Below, piece after piece: positions 35,920-62,621 of a stretch of 64,000 nucleotides of DNA. Location of the stretch: positions 62,001-126,000 of the forward strand of contig NZ_JAQZBC010000002.1 of the NCBI RefSeq assembly GCF_029239295.1, in the 5' to 3' direction. This DNA comes from Sphingomonas sp. Its GTDB lineage: Bacteria; Pseudomonadota; Alphaproteobacteria; Sphingomonadales; Sphingomonadaceae. The notes below the pieces were generated by a model, which saw only the letters and a program-made list of their open reading frames with translations, made no database searches and was not told the DNA's origin. The position numbers and the translations under genes are program-made. Positions within the stretch are counted from its first letter, which is position 1, and every line of letters begins with the position of its first letter.

Positions 35920-36000
35920 GGTCGGGGTGGTTACGCCCGGCCGCGCGCGAATGCTAGGCAAGTCATTGCTTGCGCAGCACGACGTTGCTAACGCGGGCCC

Positions 36001-36231
36001 ATGTTGCCGCCGCCCCAGATCAGCCGTGTTTCGCACCACCGCGTCGCCTGTGATGGCGCGCATGACGGGATCCCCGCAGCGCTCGGCCACCCGCGCGTCT
36101 GGCTGGAAATCTCGGAACTGGGCTATGTCGACTGCGGCTATTGCGATCGCCGTTTCGTGCTGATCGGCGGCCCGGCCGATGGCGTCGACCCGTCGACCCT
36201 CCCCGATCACGGCGACGGCGCCGGGCGCTAA
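36001..36231 (+). CDS. CHCC-type zinc finger domain protein
   Basis: A 76-residue protein with the zf-CHCC pattern, as in mitochondrial complex I subunit NDUFS6: VACDGAHDGIPAALGHPRVWLEISELGYVDCGYCDRRFVL, giving Cys/His at CDGAH, GHPRVWL and the pair CGYC. Short alphaproteobacterial members of this type are probably zinc-binding accessory proteins. The gene is divergent from the ABC ATPase with 81 bp between. No ribosome binding site is seen close to the ATG, so leaderless translation is possible. The C-terminal 20 residues are disordered and acidic. Confidence 0.8.
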   Translation: MLPPPQISRVSHHRVACDGAHDGIPAALGHPRVWLEISELGYVDCGYCDRRFVLIGGPADGVDPSTLPDHGDGAGR

Positions 36232-36567
36232 CCCGCCCGTCGACGCGACATAGGAACCACCTGCTGCGTTGTGCGGCGGGGGCTTCCGCTGCGTCGGAAC
36301 GTCGCGCTGCCGTCGCTGCGGCCGATCAGCACAACGACAAGCCTGAAGGTACGCCGCGGCGCGGATTGAACGCGGACTTGCGCCGCCCGTGCGTGACGCC
36401 CGTGTGCCCTGGCGGCCCGCAGCCCAGGCATTTGCTCCGCCTCCTTCCGCCAGAAACGCGGCAAAACCGTCGAACGGCGCCACCACGCCGTCGTTCGAAG
36501 CCGCGCGCCCCGGCCTCGTCGGCCGACCACCCCACGCCAAACCCTTAGGATCGCTGGCATTGCCACG
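36232..36567. other. non-coding GC-rich gap upstream of the DnaA-box array
   Basis: No gene is supported in these 336 bp. The open frames on both strands are rich in Arg and Pro and look like shadows. A partial hairpin with ACGGCG (36474) and CGCCGT (36486) is present. There is no AT-rich unwinding-like stretch, which would be expected beside a classical replication origin. Confidence 0.6.
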
Positions 36568-36721
36568 CTGTGCACAGCCCATGCACAGGCTGTTCACACG
36601 TTATCCACAGCCCACCCACGCCTTATCCACAGTCCGTTCAGCCGATATCCACAGGTCGCTCACATCTTGCCCACGGCTTATCCGGAACCGATCCACATAG
36701 TTGCGCACAGCTTTATCCACA
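36568..36721 (+). repeat. phased array of DnaA-box-like 9-mers
   Basis: Fourteen 9-mers related to TTATCCACA lie head to tail on the plus strand. Twelve start exactly 11 bp apart at 36568, 36579, 36590, 36601, 36612, 36623, 36634, 36645, 36656, 36667, 36678 and 36689; the last two follow at 36701 and 36713. Three are perfect TTATCCACA (36601, 36623, 36713), one is ATATCCACA (36645), and the rest are degenerate, such as CTGTGCACA, CCATGCACA, CTGTTCACA, TCGCTCACA, TTGCCCACG and CGATCCACA. Such 2-bp-spaced, same-orientation mixes of strong and weak sites are what DnaA oligomers assemble on in E. coli oriC. The array ends 38 bp before tldD. Origin, titration site or regulatory element is open. 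Confidence 0.85.
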
Positions 36722-36759
36722 GGCTTTGCGCGGCGCCTCATGCACCCTACATTCCAACG

Positions 36760-38184
36760 ATGACCGCACTCGATCCCCGCTCGTTCCTTTACCGCGACTC
36801 GCTGGATCCGGAGGCCGCGCTGTCGCTCACCGCGGGCGCCCTCTCGCGCGCCGACGACGGGGAGCTGTTCCTGCAATATCGCAAGTCGGAAGCGTTCGGC
36901 TTTGACGACGGCCGGCTGAAAACCGCCAGCTACGATACCCATTCCGGCTTCGGCCTGCGCGCCGTCTCGGGGGAGATGACCGCCTTCGCTCATGCCAGCG
37001 AACTGTCGGAGGCGGCGATCAAGCGCGCGGCGGAAACGATGCAGCTGATCGATAGGTCGACCAGCGCCAAGGCGCCGCCGCCGACCGGCACCAACCAGCG
37101 GCTCTACACCGATGGCGACCCGCTTGATCTCGTCCCGTTCGCCGACAAGGTGAACCTGTGCCAGACGATTGATGCCGCCGCGCGTGCGCGCGATCCGCGC
37201 GTCGCGCAGGTGTCGGTCGGCCTGTCGGGCACCTGGAGCGTGGTGGAAATCGTCCGCCCGGACGGTTTCGTCGCCACTGACGTTCGCCCGCTGGTGCGGC
37301 TCAACGTGTCGATCGTGGTCGAACAGAATGGCCGCCGCGAAACCGGCACCTTCGGCATTGGCGGCCGCTATCTCTACGATTCGCTGCTCGATCCGGCCAC
37401 GTGGAACCGCGCGATTGATGAGGCGCTGGCACAGGCCTTGGTCAATCTCGAATCGGTTGCGGCGCCGGCCGGCGAATTCACCGTGCTCTTCGGACCCGGC
37501 TGGCCCGGCATCCTCCTGCACGAGGCGATCGGCCACGGGCTGGAGGGCGATTTCAACCGCAAGGGTACCAGCGCCTTTTCGGGCCGCATCGGCGAGCAGG
37601 TCGCCGCGCGCGGCGTTACGGTCGTCGACGACGGCTCGATCCGCGATCGCCGCGGCTCGCTGACCATCGACGACGAAGGCACGCCGACTCGCGAGACGAT
37701 CCTGATCGAGGACGGCTTCCTGAAGGGCTATATGCAGGATCGCCTCAACGCCCGCCTGATGGGCGTCGAGGCGACCGGCAACGGCCGTCGCGAAAGCTTC
37801 GCGCACGCACCCATGCCGCGCATGACCAACACCTTCATGAAGGGCGGCAACGACGATCCGACGGAGCTGCTCTCCCGCGTGAAGAACGGCATCTATGCCA
37901 AGTCGTTCGGCGGCGGCCAGGTCGACATCGTCTCGGGCAAGTTCGTCTTCTCCTGCACCGAGGCGTATAAGGTGGAGAACGGCCGCATCGGCGCGCCGAT
38001 CAAGGGCGCGACGCTGATCGGCGATGGTCCGACCGTACTCACCAAGGTGCTTGGCGTCGGCAACGACTTCGCGCTGGATGAGGGGATCGGCATGTGCGGC
38101 AAGGGTGGGCAGAGCGTGCCCGCCGGCGTCGGTCAGCCGACGCTGCTGGTCGGCGGCCTGACGGTGGGCGGCACGGCCGCCTGA
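36760..38184 (+). CDS. tldD: metalloprotease TldD
   Basis: A 474-residue protein of the TldD/PmbA family, which with TldE processes modified peptides and the CcdA-type antitoxins. The zinc motif HEAIGH is at residues 254-259 in LLHEAIGHGLEGDFNRKGTSAF. Other family segments are SGTWSVVEIVRPDGF, YLYDSLLDPATWNR, and the C-terminal KSFGGGQVDIVSGKFVFSCTEAYKVENG (read in pieces). The partner pmbA/tldE is not in the window. The ATG at 36760 is chosen since upstream residues are encoded by the DnaA-box array. That array may regulate it. Confidence 0.95.
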   Translation: MTALDPRSFLYRDSLDPEAALSLTAGALSRADDGELFLQYRKSEAFGFDDGRLKTASYDTHSGFGLRAVSGEMTAFAHASELSEAAIKRAAETMQLIDRSTSAKAPPPTGTNQRLYTDGDPLDLVPFADKVNLCQTIDAAARARDPRVAQVSVGLSGTWSVVEIVRPDGFVATDVRPLVRLNVSIVVEQNGRRETGTFGIGGRYLYDSLLDPATWNRAIDEALAQALVNLESVAAPAGEFTVLFGPGWPGILLHEAIGHGLEGDFNRKGTSAFSGRIGEQVAARGVTVVDDGSIRDRRGSLTIDDEGTPTRETILIEDGFLKGYMQDRLNARLMGVEATGNGRRESFAHAPMPRMTNTFMKGGNDDPTELLSRVKNGIYAKSFGGGQVDIVSGKFVFSCTEAYKVENGRIGAPIKGATLIGDGPTVLTKVLGVGNDFALDEGIGMCGKGGQSVPAGVGQPTLLVGGLTVGGTAA

Positions 38185-54497: not shown

Positions 54498-55943
54498 ATG
54501 GCTGGTGCAGCCGGCGCCCGCAGCTTCGGGCGTGCCGTTGCGCCCGTGCGCGTCCTCCCCTGGCCCGACCGCCTCCGCCTCGCGCTGCATCAGACCGACT
54601 GGGTGCCCGATCTGGGCGCGCGCATCGGCAGCCGTGACTGGTGGCGCGGCCTGGCGACCTGCGGCGGCCTGATCGCCGCTGCGACGCTGACCGCGCCGGG
54701 CATCCGCCCGCTTCCGGGCAGCATTGCCACGCAAATGATCGGCGCCGAGCGCGAAGAGGCGCGCACCCTGTCGATCGCCCCGCTCGGCCTTGGCGCCTCG
54801 AGCGGGCGGCGCATGGCCGCCAACGATCTCGTCCGCCCGCTGTCCGAAACACCCGAGCGTCCAACGATCGAATTGTCGGCCTCGCTGAGCAACGGCGACA
54901 GCTTTGGCGCAGCCTTGCAACGCGCCGGTGTCGGCCGCGCCGATGCCGCCCGCGCCGCCGCGCTGGTCGCGAGCGAAGTGGGCCTGAAGGATCTGAAGCC
55001 CGGCACCGTCCTCGATCTGACGCTCGGCCGCCGCCACGATCGCCGCACTGCCCGGCCGCTCGAAAAGCTCGCCTTCCGCGCCCGCTTCGACCTCAATCTC
55101 GTGCTGCATCGCCAGGCAGAGGGGCTGACGCTGGAGCGGCGCCCGATCGCGATCGACAATACGCCGCTGCGGATCAAGGGCCAGGTCGGCTCCAGCCTCT
55201 ACCGCTCGGCCCGCGCCGCCGGCGCCCCCGCGAAACTGGTCGAGGCTTATATCAAGGCGATCGCCGCGCGGACCTCAGTCGGCTCGATCCCCGCCAGCGC
55301 CACCTTCGACATGATTGCCGATCACGCCCGCGCCGCCACCGGCGAGGTGCAGGTCGGCCAGCTCCAATATGCCGGTCTCGACCAGGGCCGCACGAAATTG
55401 CGGCTCGTGCGCTGGGAGGGTGGCGACGGCAACGGCGGGCAGTTCTGGGACGCCAATGGCCAGGTTAAGCGCCAGGGCTTCATGGGCATGCCGGTCACCG
55501 GGCGGATTTCCTCCACCTTTGGCATGCGGCGCCACCCGCTGCTGGGCTTCCTGCGGATGCACAAGGGCCTCGATCTCGCCGCGCCGCACGGCTCGCCGAT
55601 CTACGCCCCGATCGACGGCCGGGTCGTCATGGCGGCGCGCAACCGCGGCTATGGCAATTTCATCAAGCTGGACCATTCCAGCGGCATTTCGAGCGGCTAT
55701 GGCCATCTCAGCCGCTTTGCCGTGCGCGCCGGCCAGCAGGTCTCGCGCGGCCAGGTGATCGGCTATGTCGGCTCCACCGGCATGTCGACCGGACCGCATC
55801 TGCACTGGGAAGTGTGGAAGAACGGCAAGAACGTCAATCCGCGCTCGATTCCGCTGTCCAGCGTCGCGACGCTGTCGGGTGAAAAGCTGCGCGCGTTCAA
55901 GAAAAAGACCGCGCAACTTCTTGCGGCACCCGTCGCCAACTGA
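54498..55943 (+). CDS. M23 family metallopeptidase (murein endopeptidase type)
   Basis: An approximately 481-residue envelope protein. A transmembrane helix (WWRGLATCGGLIAAATLTAPGI) lies near residue 60, then a coiled/OapA-like region with LSNGDSFGAALQRAGV, and a C-terminal LytM domain. Its zinc site is visible: GRISSTFGMRRHPLLGFLRMHKGLDLAAPHG (His and Asp) and GPHLHWEVWKNGKNVNP (HxH). It hydrolyses or remodels peptidoglycan. The start is uncertain: the frame is open from a TTG at 54393, but the ATG at 54498 begins closer to the conserved sequence. Confidence 0.86.
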   Translation: MAGAAGARSFGRAVAPVRVLPWPDRLRLALHQTDWVPDLGARIGSRDWWRGLATCGGLIAAATLTAPGIRPLPGSIATQMIGAEREEARTLSIAPLGLGASSGRRMAANDLVRPLSETPERPTIELSASLSNGDSFGAALQRAGVGRADAARAAALVASEVGLKDLKPGTVLDLTLGRRHDRRTARPLEKLAFRARFDLNLVLHRQAEGLTLERRPIAIDNTPLRIKGQVGSSLYRSARAAGAPAKLVEAYIKAIAARTSVGSIPASATFDMIADHARAATGEVQVGQLQYAGLDQGRTKLRLVRWEGGDGNGGQFWDANGQVKRQGFMGMPVTGRISSTFGMRRHPLLGFLRMHKGLDLAAPHGSPIYAPIDGRVVMAARNRGYGNFIKLDHSSGISSGYGHLSRFAVRAGQQVSRGQVIGYVGSTGMSTGPHLHWEVWKNGKNVNPRSIPLSSVATLSGEKLRAFKKKTAQLLAAPVAN

Positions 55944-56045
55944 CGAACATTGCCGTTCTGCCGGGTCTATGCCGGATCTCTGGCCGGCTTTGACTTGCCG
56001 GCACGCCTTTCGCTTCACCACAAACCCGCCTAACGCGCGGTCATC

Positions 56046-57452
56046 ATGGAGATCGCCGCCAATCCTCCGCTGACCGATACGCGTCCGGTGACCGACCGGG
56101 CCGAACTGTCGGCACTGGTCCGGCTGGCGGGGCCGCTGGTCGGGGCGAATCTGCTCCAGATGGCGGTCAGCGCGGTGGACGTGATCTTCGTCGCGCGGCT
56201 GGGCACCGTTGAGCTCGCCGCCGCCACGCTCGGCGTCTTCCTCTTCAACCTGTGCATGTATGCGCTGATCGGGCTGACCAGCGCAGCGGCCCCGCTGATC
56301 GCGGCCGAGCTTGGCCGCCGCCGCCACGCCGTGCGCGAGGTTCGCCGCAGTGTGCGCATGGCCTTCTGGGTCGGTGCGGCCGGCTGCGTCCCGGTGGTCC
56401 TCCTCCTCGCCAATGGCGAAACGGTGCTGCTGCTGTTCGGTCAGGATCCGGAGGTTTCGCGCCGCGCGGGCAGTTTTCTCGACATCATCCTGCTGGCCAT
56501 TCCGATGGGCGTCGCCGCCGGGGTGATGCGCACCGCCGCCGCCGCGCTGGGCCGGCCCGGCTGGGCCTTCGTGGTGACGGGGCTGTCGCTCGGCGTCAGC
56601 ATCCTGGCCAATTGGATGCTGGTGTTCGGCAATCTCGGCGCCCCCGCGCTCGGGCTGGAGGGGTCCGCCTGGGCCAGCGTCATCAGCCTGACTGCCATGG
56701 CGCTTGCCTATGTGGCGATCCTGCTCCTCGATCCGCGCCTTCGCCGTTACCGGCTGTTCGGCCGCTGGTGGGTCACCGAATGGTCGCGCTTTCGGGAGAT
56801 CGTGCGGCTGGGCGTGCCGATCATGCTGACCTGGGTGTTCGAAGGCGCGCTGTTCGGTGGCGCCGCGATCCTGATGGGGTTGATCGGCGTGAACGAGGTG
56901 GCGGCGCATGCCGTCGCGCTGAACATCGCCGCCATTGCCTTCCAGGTGCCGTTCGGCATTGCCCAGGCGGCAACCATCCGCGTCGGCATGGCCTATGGCG
57001 CGGCCGATGCGGCATGGATCGCCCGGGCGGGGCGCGTCGCGCTCGTGCTCGGCATCGGCTTCATGGGCGTGACGGCGCTCGCGATCTGGCTGGCGCCTCG
57101 CCTGTTCGTCAGCGCCTATGTCGATGTCGATGCGCCGCAGAACGCGGTGGTTGTCGGCCTGGCCGTGAAGTTCCTCGCGGTGGCCGCGATGTTCCAGCTG
57201 GTCGACGGGGCGCAGGCGGTGGCCGCCGGCGTGCTGCGCGGCCTGCAGGATACGCGCGTACCGATGATCATCGCGCTTTTCGGCTATTGGGTGATCGGCT
57301 TCGGCACCTCGGGCCTGCTCGGCTTCTATTTCGGGCTGGACGGCGTCGGCATCTGGCTTGGGCTGGCCGTTGGCCTCCTCGCCGTCTCGATCCTGTTGCT
57401 GTGGCGTTGGCGCGCCCGTGAACGGCTTGGTCTGCTGCCACGCACCTCCTGA
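56046..57452 (+). CDS. MATE family multidrug exporter
   Basis: A 468-residue twelve-helix MATE transporter. The N-terminal domain shows AGPLVGANLLQMAVSAVDVIFVARLGTVELAAATLGV, and the second half begins RLGVPIMLTWVFEGALFGGAAILMG, with NIAAIAFQVPFGIAQAATIRVGMAYG and ALQ-like QLVDGAQAVAAGVLRGLQDTRVPM, a NorM-type ending. It exports organic cations or drugs using sodium or protons. It starts 100 bp after the M23 gene in the same direction; groESL follow under their own control. Confidence 0.95.
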   Translation: MEIAANPPLTDTRPVTDRAELSALVRLAGPLVGANLLQMAVSAVDVIFVARLGTVELAAATLGVFLFNLCMYALIGLTSAAAPLIAAELGRRRHAVREVRRSVRMAFWVGAAGCVPVVLLLANGETVLLLFGQDPEVSRRAGSFLDIILLAIPMGVAAGVMRTAAAALGRPGWAFVVTGLSLGVSILANWMLVFGNLGAPALGLEGSAWASVISLTAMALAYVAILLLDPRLRRYRLFGRWWVTEWSRFREIVRLGVPIMLTWVFEGALFGGAAILMGLIGVNEVAAHAVALNIAAIAFQVPFGIAQAATIRVGMAYGAADAAWIARAGRVALVLGIGFMGVTALAIWLAPRLFVSAYVDVDAPQNAVVVGLAVKFLAVAAMFQLVDGAQAVAAGVLRGLQDTRVPMIIALFGYWVIGFGTSGLLGFYFGLDGVGIWLGLAVGLLAVSILLLWRWRARERLGLLPRTS

Positions 57453-57484
57453 CGAATTGTTCCAGAATTTTGTGCGCGTCCCCG

Positions 57485-57513
57485 TTGACGCTGCTCACCC
57501 TCAATCACATATC
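57485..57513 (+). promoter_or_regulatory. probable groESL promoter
   Basis: TTGACG (57485-57490) is followed after 17 bases by CATATC (57508-57513), 8 bases before the CIRCE element. The -10 match is only partial and could instead belong to a heat-shock sigma factor promoter; the exact class is not decided. Confidence 0.4.
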
Positions 57514-57520
57514 GCTGTCG

Positions 57521-57547
57521 CTGGCACTCGCATCAGGGGAGTGCCAA
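57521..57547. promoter_or_regulatory. CIRCE operator (HrcA binding site)
   Basis: CTGGCACTC (57521-57529), nine spacer bases, then GAGTGCCAA (57539-57547). This matches the CIRCE consensus TTAGCACTC-N9-GAGTGCTAA at fifteen of eighteen arm positions and is 37 bp upstream of the groES ATG. It implies repression of groESL by HrcA, whose gene is not in the window. Confidence 0.93.
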
Positions 57548-57584
57548 CGAACTGTTATACTCCGCTCAAAGAGAGGGAATCCGC

Positions 57585-57872
57585 ATGAACTTCCGTCCGC
57601 TGCACGACCGCGTGCTTGTGCGCCGCGTCGAGGCCGAGGAAAAGACCGCAGGCGGCATCATCATTCCGGACACCGCCAAGGAAAAGCCGCAGGAAGGCGA
57701 AGTCGTCGCCGCCGGTGCTGGCTCCAAGGCTGAGGATGGCAAGGTTACCCCGCTGGACGTCAAGGCCGGTGATCGCATCCTGTTCGGCAAGTGGTCGGGC
57801 ACCGAGGTTAAGGTCAACGGTGAAGACCTGCTGATCATGAAGGAATCGGACATCCTCGGCATTCTCGCCTGA
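57585..57872 (+). CDS. groES: co-chaperonin GroES
   Basis: A 95-residue cap of the GroEL chamber. It begins [20 protein letters not shown], with the mobile loop [19 protein letters not shown] at about residues 17-35, then [13 protein letters not shown] and the closing ESDILGILA. First gene of the groESL operon, under CIRCE control. AGAGAGG precedes the ATG. It lies 56 bp before groEL. Confidence 0.98.
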
Positions 57873-57916
57873 GCGATCCGCAACCTCTTCATATTTTACA
57901 ACATTCGTTCATTTGA

Positions 57917-59566
<1,650 letters not shown>

Positions 59567-59573
59567 TTTCGGA

Positions 59574-59597
59574 CCGGGGCAGCGAACGCTGCCCCGG
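59574..59597 (+). terminator. hairpin after groEL
   Basis: CCGGGGCAGCG (59574-59584) and its perfect complement (59587-59597) around AA form an 11-bp stem just after the groEL stop, without a T-run. It could protect the 3' end. Confidence 0.5.
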
Positions 59598-59646
59598 ACA
59601 CGATATCGGATCCGCAGTGGCCCAGCCGCTGCGCCATTCGCAAAAA

Positions 59647-59683
59647 GAAAGGGGCCGGACGCACCATGCGTCCGGCCCCTTTC
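59647..59683. terminator. bidirectional intrinsic terminator between groEL and the DMT gene
   Basis: GAAAGGGGCCGGACGC (59647-59662), loop ACCAT, and the perfect complement (59668-59683) give a 16-bp stem. On the plus strand TTTCG follows, and on the minus strand the exit reads TTTCTTTTTG, a good T-run. So it can stop both the groEL transcript and the convergent transporter transcript. Confidence 0.82.
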
Positions 59684-59807
59684 GTTGCGCGCGCCAGATG
59701 GATCGTCAGTGGTGGCCACGCCCGTGTGAAACGAGGCCGATGGCAGGCCGACGGCAGGCCGCCTGCATGCCGGCCGCGGCCGATCTTCTCCGCTAGCAGG
59801 CCGGCAT

Positions 59808-60695
59808 TCAGGCTTGCTCCCGCTCCGCCAGCAGTGGGCTCGCCGCCTTCTGCCGCAACGCCACCACCAGCACCCCGGCCAGCGCCAGCATCGCTCCGGC
59901 GATCATCCGGCCATCCAATTTGTCCCCGGTCAGCATCACCCCGAAGGCGATGGTGAAAATCGGCGTCATCAGCGTCAGCGGCGCCAGCATATTGGCCTCA
60001 TACCGCCGGATCAGCCCGTAATAACTGGTGTGCCCCAGTACGGAGACGACAAGCGCCGCGAACAGCACCGCGCCGACGAACGGCCACCCGACCGCCGCCG
60101 CGCTGCTCCACTGCCCTGTTTCGAAGAGCGCTGACGCGAGCGCCAGCGGCAGGAACGATACCAGGCCCACCCACGCCTGGAAGCGCAGCGGCGCGACATT
60201 CTCCACCTGCTTCATCAACACCGCCCCCAGCGAGCCGGTAAACGCCGCCCCCACGACGAACCACAGCCCGGTCGACAGCGCGATGCCGTTGGGATTCCAC
60301 ACCACCAGCAGCACGCCGGCCAGCGTCAGCGAAATGCCCAGCCCGCGCCGCCAATGGATCCGTTCGCCCAGCATCACAATCGACAGCAGCGTGGTGAACG
60401 GCACGCCGATCTGGATCACCACCGCGGCCGCTGAGGGGGAAGCTGTCTGCAAGCCGATGAAAAGAAGCGCGAAATTGCCCGCCCCCATCAGGATACCGAT
60501 TGCCACGATCCGCCAGCGCGGTCGGGGCATCGGCAGCAACCACGGCAGCGTCACCGCGATCACCACGGCAAAGCGGATTGCGGCGAAGAACAGCGGCGGG
60601 ATCGCCCAGTTACCGACGACGATCTTGCTGAGCACATTGCTGTAGCCCCAGACGAGACAGATCAGGACCAGCAGCAGGAAATCGCGAAGCTTCAT
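59808..60695 (-). CDS. EamA family transporter (DMT superfamily)
   Basis: A 295-residue protein with ten hydrophobic segments in two EamA repeats: LVLICLVWGYSNVLSKIV at the start, WRIVAIGILMGAGNFALLFIGLQTASPSAAAVVIQIGVPFTTLLSIVMLGERIHWRRGLG for the first repeat end, and YGLIRRYEANMLAPLTLMTPIFTIAFGVMLTGDKLDG in the second. The substrate is unknown. The ATG at 60695 has GGAG 6 bases upstream, while one at 60701 is too close. It converges on groEL and is divergent from uup. Confidence 0.9.
   Translation of the reverse strand: MKLRDFLLLVLICLVWGYSNVLSKIVVGNWAIPPLFFAAIRFAVVIAVTLPWLLPMPRPRWRIVAIGILMGAGNFALLFIGLQTASPSAAAVVIQIGVPFTTLLSIVMLGERIHWRRGLGISLTLAGVLLVVWNPNGIALSTGLWFVVGAAFTGSLGAVLMKQVENVAPLRFQAWVGLVSFLPLALASALFETGQWSSAAAVGWPFVGAVLFAALVVSVLGHTSYYGLIRRYEANMLAPLTLMTPIFTIAFGVMLTGDKLDGRMIAGAMLALAGVLVVALRQKAASPLLAEREQA

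Positions 60696-60839: not shown

Positions 60840-62621
<1,782 letters not shown>

Follow-up and report, generated by a model that had tools for sequence, protein, structure and literature searches.

A phased array of DnaA-box-like sequences upstream of tldD in a Sphingomonas genome: a candidate DnaA-binding site outside the predicted replication origin

Upstream of the tldD gene in a Sphingomonas draft genome, fourteen 9-mers that resemble DnaA boxes follow one another at a nearly constant step, and the question raised by this locus is what such an array would do. The stretch of DNA analysed, termed here the window, is 64,000 nt in length and comprises positions 62001–126000 of contig C17 of genome G000. 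An earlier note, made from the letters, had offered three options: the array may be the chromosomal origin oriC, a site for titration of DnaA or regulation of ATP-DnaA, or a DnaA-controlled promoter of tldD. The features of the locus are given below (positions are those of the window).

36001..36231, plus strand: gene for a zf-CHCC zinc-finger protein, 5′ of tldD
36232..36759: intergene of 528 bp, the first ~330 bp of which are 71% G+C
36568..36721, plus strand: array of 14 DnaA-box-like 9-mers, by 9-mer matching; eleven 11-bp steps, then two 12-bp steps
36601..36609, plus strand: perfect TTATCCACA, unit 4, by 9-mer matching
36623..36631, plus strand: perfect TTATCCACA, unit 6, by 9-mer matching
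36645..36653, plus strand: ATATCCACA, 8/9 matches, unit 8, by 9-mer matching
36713..36721, plus strand: perfect terminal TTATCCACA, unit 14, a putative anchor box, perfect and in the same place in the related genome G430
36725..36753, plus strand: probable tldD promoter, TTTGCG (36725–36730), 17 bp, TACATT (36748–36753), judged by eye
36760..38184, plus strand: tldD, metalloprotease TldD

The array spans 154 bp, and all 14 units are head-to-tail in one orientation. From 36568 onward, units 1–12 have 6, 6, 6, 9, 5, 9, 3, 8, 5, 6, 7 and 7 matches out of nine to TTATCCACA, and the units at 36701 and 36713 have 6/9 and 9/9. Three units are perfect, one is ATATCCACA, seven have 6–7 matches, and the three with 3–5 matches (36612, 36634 and 36656) are counted as units by phase alone. 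This confirms the layout given in the earlier note, i.e. twelve units at an 11-bp period and two more at 12-bp steps, with perfect boxes at 36601, 36623 and 36713 among weaker forms. On the minus strand, no 9-mer with eight or more matches to TTATCCACA lies closer than 32891. Perfect TTATCCACA occurs 7 times in the 3.47-Mb draft genome, and 3 of these are within the array. One perfect copy is found at L086:1501–1509 (G000:C13:98729), about 90 bp ahead of an apparent 16S rRNA start.

Summed over 12 units at period 11, the matches amount to 77 of 108, which within the window corresponds to z = 12.5. For comparison, 80 other loci (1.86 million positions) were scored and the window was copied 60 times by an order-1 Markov model; in either set the 12-unit sum peaks at 52. 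Among periods of 9–23 bp, only 22, a multiple of 11, stands out besides 11 itself (z = 9.3); all others are at z = 4.9 or less. A chain score that permits steps of 9–13 and 22 bp gives 35.2 for the tldD array. It stays at or below 8.0 in 556 background 3-kb pieces, and at or below 7.2 in 120 Mb of sequence from a simulation trained on stretches that include array loci. In a reversed-sequence control of the chain test, one of 498 3-kb pieces reached 11.9, and the phase pattern described below also matched in some genomes when read backwards.

The intergene that contains the array is 528 bp here and 554 bp in G430; measured in 14 further members of the genus, it is 18–388 bp. Between the terminal box and TTTGCG there are 3 bp, and between the box and the tldD ATG 38 bp, with the same spacing in G430; a box next to promoter elements, which here were judged by eye, is what would be expected of a DnaA-regulated promoter. 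A pair similar to TTTGCG/TACATT is present, also by eye, in most of 14 relatives, with or without an array. A search of Rfam gave zero matches in 36100–36900 up to E = 1, which speaks against a non-coding RNA. The sequence WATCAANNNNTTR, the E. coli IHF consensus, which makes for a weak test here, has no copy with one mismatch or less within 600 bp of the array, the nearest being at 35959–35971. By the same weak test, the array does not have the IHF site that lies between the essential boxes of datA.

Is the array the origin of replication? The predicted oriC is the hemE|ppsR intergene on C31, a different contig from that of the array. Both flanking genes were confirmed. The intergene contains 2 of the genome's 7 perfect TTATCCACA together with five weaker boxes, in both orientations, and most Sphingomonadaceae in DoriC are reported to have their origin predicted at hemE (PMC4741004). 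The best 40-bp A+T content is 0.53 at the array versus 0.63 at hemE|ppsR, and no AT-rich unwinding element was found beside the array boxes, in agreement with the earlier note. The check by GC skew that the note had proposed, done here by sampling of the draft genome, shows no switch at the array: skew is negative on either side of it and in all but one of ten stretches sampled along C17. Nine of the proteins encoded nearby were tested, and the usual origin neighbours are missing among them, as had been remarked of the locus; none of the nine has a match to a replication, integrase or phage family, and one has no match of any kind. The gene hemE is on C31, and dnaA is on the contig of the array at a distance of ~79 kb.

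GC skew is coarse and messy in these genomes. It is imprecise for hemE|ppsR as well, with a sign change ~65 kb away in C31; in G328 and G302 the sign changes 60–280 kb from ppsR, G162 is unclear, and in none of the four genomes sampled is the switch clearly on hemE|ppsR. Since skew cannot pin the origin, its predicted placement at hemE rests on gene context, boxes and the literature. Within the window, at 55000–60000, skew climbs from about −0.06 to slightly positive over 56–60 kb and is then near zero. In favour of an origin at the array, either oriC or a second chromosomal one, are its numerous boxes, some strong and some weak, that all face one way, the presence of dnaA 79 kb off, and an array directly 3′ of dnaA in two genomes of another genus (G162 and G211). 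The hemE|ppsR prediction, the lack of an AT-rich element and the negative skew on both sides nevertheless rule out oriC, and an origin of either kind at this site is extremely improbable. A DnaA-box cluster outside the predicted oriC that exceeds chance, as this one does, has one of the properties that mark an extra-origin (titration-type) cluster.

The tldD locus was compared in the best 30 TldD loci of a search of 295 genomes of the genus. Two of these 30 have the array at tldD, i.e. the genome itself and G430, and the other 28 have chain scores of 4.1 or less. A further 78 named loci (of 80; those with enough upstream DNA) score 5.8 or less and show no array at tldD. G430 is the nearest relative examined (TldD 99%) and was located by its TldD and not by the box pattern. 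It has 14 units with identical steps in the same place. Between the two genomes, 50 of the 56 letters of the CACA core are identical, as against 54 of 98 at the remaining seven positions of the units (Fisher p = 1.2e-5). The perfect units are numbers 4, 6 and 14 in G000 and 1, 8 and 14 in G430. By comparison of the two sequences, the period, the core and the terminal box are kept while the remainder drifts. The same 14 steps and a kept core, with strong units that changed places, suggest selection on phase and core, and this supports the contention of the earlier note that the layout is functional and not random.

A BLAST search with the array found the genome itself only (1/249), and so did a pattern search for two perfect boxes separated by 22 bp (1/151). 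BLAST is blind to relatives because the array keeps phase and not sequence, and for this reason a phase pattern and a sequence profile were needed. The phase pattern consists of five CACA at 11 bp, with up to 2 mismatches allowed. It matched in 7 of 295 genus genomes, five of the matches being DnaA-like arrays and two simple repeats. The matches dropped as simple or other repeats are those of G374 and G433 in the genus (for G433, its phase-pattern match) and of G005 and G175 in the family. The profile, 55 bp long and built from arrays, matched in 77 of the 295 genomes at E up to 0.1, many of them weakly. Thirty profile-matched loci were checked; 25 have a chain score above 8, many of these being short (3–5 boxes), and 5 are below 8. 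Verified arrays with 8 units or more (range 8–22) are present in at least 13 of the 295 genomes, a lower bound because only 30 profile-matched loci were checked. These arrays are at the following places.

at tldD: G000 and G430
at alr: G410, G378, G516 and G307
between DUF475 and terD, near alr: G433
upstream of dnaB: G447
between DUF3088 and cysH: G302 and G327
upstream of a GNAT gene: G427 and G517
beside COX1: G416

The 13 carriers thus have the array at 7 kinds of places, with one strong array per genome; a single extra weak match is present in each of G430, G517, G416 and G378, that of G378 being beside its ppsR. A 12-bp step into a perfect terminal TTATCCACA is seen in 8 of the 13 (G000, G430, G410, G378, G516, G307, G447 and G517). 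Ten of the 13 long arrays are oriented toward the start of the next gene. The exceptions are G302 and G327, where both neighbours have their 3′ ends toward the array, and G416, where it faces away from COX1. G427 and G517 have a TldD 95% identical to that of the window and carry the array at the GNAT gene with none at tldD; thus related carriers hold it at different places. In some close relatives, G328, G268 and G336 among them, the profile has no match at E up to 0.1. The comparison of tldD upstream regions that the earlier note had proposed therefore gives a divided answer: the array is conserved in G430 and absent at tldD elsewhere, and a minority of genomes have arrays at loci other than tldD.

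Identity between arrays at the same place is higher in the core than in the spacer: 0.89 versus 0.46 for G000/G430, 0.82 versus 0.40 for G410/G378, 0.82 versus 0.67 for G302/G327, and, slightly, 1.00 versus 0.96 for G162/G211. In 122 units pooled from ten arrays, relative entropy is 0.47–1.83 bits in the 9-mer and 0.29 and 0.15 bits in the 2-bp spacer, a contrast that is partly built in because most arrays were found by their CACA. The number of units varies among the alr arrays (10, 10, 11 and 8). Relative to the ppsR region, the array of G378 lies at ~243 kb, that of G162 at ~273 kb, that of G107 at ~471 kb and that of G302 at ~2.05 Mb. A short cluster of 3–5 boxes was also seen at one homologous locus in seven genomes (L227, L230, L235, L236, L239, L240 and L242); it adjoins rpe-like and rsmB-like genes and ends with a 12-bp step to TTATCCACAGC.

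Such arrays occur in further alphaproteobacterial families. In a sample of the family, the phase pattern matched in 8 of 397 genomes: the genome itself, the repeats of G005 and G175, short runs of 5–6 units in G577 and G163, and G162, G211 and G107. G162 and G211 (L175 and L176, minus strand) have 13 units, placed just 3′ of the dnaA stop codon and overlapping the beginning of a DUF983 gene, and in G107 there are at least 10. In a class-wide sample, the profile matched in 18 of 270 genomes at E up to 0.01. The clearest matches after a chain check, the null of which is not from AT-rich genomes, are G727 (41 units), G946 (23 units), G811, G912 and G782. The chains of G727 (L327:1312–1812) and G946 (L339:1494–1746) are from one genus of another family and are the longest of all. 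At L323:1437–1618, L340:5–123 and L331 (minus strand), G811 has perfect TTATGCACAGG units in tandem, its copies being at contig ends, and G912 has many perfect TTATCCACA beside a gene read by eye as fabI. This may be a young array. Separately, Vibrio phage BD5 (PV244425.1) has a run of 11-bp-phased TTATCCACA-like boxes at L347:1480–1640, in or beside a small hypothetical gene, which is perhaps a DnaA sink or origin of the phage.

The genome's DnaA passes the TIGR00362 cutoff. Toward its C-terminus it can be aligned with 1j1v, a structure deposited under the name DnaA, which is the E. coli complex of domain IV with a DnaA box. Judged by its sequence, this is a normal DnaA gene. In E. coli oriC, sites 2 bp apart are described as lying on one helix face, with weak sites filled progressively from strong ones (PMC4451416, PMC4285127). 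The boxes of E. coli datA are reported to run in one direction and to collect ATP-DnaA, the ATP of which is then hydrolysed; datA-like clusters hold back initiation in B. subtilis and S. coelicolor according to the same source (PMC5742627). The E. coli chromosome itself is said to titrate DnaA (PMC12371093).

The reading we favour, with moderate confidence, is that the array is an extra-origin site of DnaA oligomerisation, probably a titration or ATP-DnaA-lowering locus that would be datA-like but longer, with a strict phase. Binding by DnaA would begin at the few strong boxes and extend from there over the weaker units, cooperatively and mainly as ATP-DnaA, and the outcome would be titration or a datA-like hydrolysis of ATP. 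By withholding DnaA from oriC, the array may restrain initiation at the hemE origin and time copying. One strong array per genome at 7 kinds of places fits a role at the level of the chromosome better than control of a single gene. Of the three options in the earlier note, that of an origin is thus dropped, titration or regulation of ATP-DnaA is preferred, and control of the tldD promoter is retained as a competitor. Several observations stand against a DnaA sink. The distribution is patchy, with at least 13 of 295 genus genomes having an array and close relatives lacking it; the distance from the ppsR region varies, whereas a sink timed by gene dosage would be expected to keep a steady place near the origin; there is no IHF-like site within 600 bp; and 10 of 13 arrays face the beginning of the gene that follows, which is how a promoter element would lie.

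The main rival is that the array is the DnaA-responsive upstream region of the tldD promoter, where DnaA on the terminal box beside the −35 element would activate or repress tldD with the cell cycle. The short distances from that box to the conserved TTTGCG-17-TACATT (3 bp) and to the ATG (38 bp), repeated in G430, and the 10 of 13 long arrays that point to a gene start are as this proposal would have it. However, the downstream genes vary (tldD, alr, terD, dnaB and GNAT), the arrays of G302 and G327 lie between converging genes and that of G416 is directed away from COX1, fourteen phased sites exceed the need of one promoter, and relatives retain the tldD promoter without any array. We consider promoter control unlikely.

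It is also conceivable, although quite improbable, that the array is a functionless 11-bp tandem repeat in decay that resembles DnaA boxes by chance. Perfect or simple 11-bp repeats do exist in relatives (the tandem TTATGCACAGG of G811 and a non-DnaA 11-mer in G374), unit number shifts between the alr arrays, most close relatives lack the array, and one of the 498 reversed control pieces reached 11.9. Decay would be expected to be equal in core and spacer, yet core identity exceeds spacer identity in all four pairs, if slightly in G162/G211, and G430 keeps both the steps and the terminal box. The longer intergene in both carriers, G000 and G430, and the similar array in Vibrio phage BD5 bring to mind a mobile origin, from a plasmid, a phage or another element, that inserted 5′ of tldD and of which the array would be the remnant. 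Positions 36232–36760 have no match in 72,556 plasmid records, which speaks against a plasmid origin; two Vibrio phages match the array portion only (11% of the query, E = 4e-3), and the nine neighbouring proteins tested show no match to replication, integrase or phage families. There is very little likelihood of a mobile relic.

A DnaA sink, if this is what the array is, would belong to a known kind of element, the extra-origin DnaA-box cluster; what is new is the architecture and the changing position, binding of DnaA being a prediction from sequence. More tentatively, the Alphaproteobacteria may have their own class of sites for DnaA filaments outside the origin, with a single long array per carrier genome, strictly phased at 11 bp, in which weak sites are followed by a 12-bp step to a perfect anchor box. 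Such arrays would be born and lost or relocated between unrelated loci, with phase and the CACA core under selection, and would represent a fast-evolving sink that uses the array grammar of oriC minus the unwinding element. No description of such phased arrays was found in the open-access literature, judged by title and start of abstract, and for low-affinity DnaA sites, information from outside E. coli is described as lacking (PMC4451416). Little is known of how DnaA is restrained in bacteria beyond a few models. With 14 phased sites, and up to 22 in relatives, and with species that do and do not have an array among close kin, these genomes offer natural comparisons for DnaA titration, and the array lets the growth of DnaA filaments on duplex DNA be studied apart from origin opening.

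Comparison with known systems places the array as follows. Like datA of E. coli, described as a cluster of DnaA boxes outside oriC with its essential boxes in one direction (PMC5742627), the array has its units in a single direction; datA, however, is reported to need three boxes and a single IHF site within 183 bp (PMC5742627), and the array comprises 14 phased sites, near which the search for an IHF-like site was negative. DARS1 and DARS2 of E. coli are likewise clusters of DnaA boxes, and steer the nucleotide state of DnaA; by their description, i.e. core boxes I–III, with IHF and Fis sites in DARS2 (PMC5742627), they are set apart from a long one-way run. The clusters of B. subtilis and S. 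coelicolor are reported to be intergenic, outside oriC, and analogues of datA that restrain initiation (PMC4451416, PMC5742627), and the array is likewise intergenic and outside the predicted oriC; the strict 11-bp phase and the changing location are traits of the genomes analysed here. The low-affinity arrays of E. coli oriC share with the tldD array one orientation, 2-bp gaps and weak sites beside strong ones (PMC4451416). They have four sites per array together with an unwinding element, whereas the tldD array has 14 sites and no AT-rich element.
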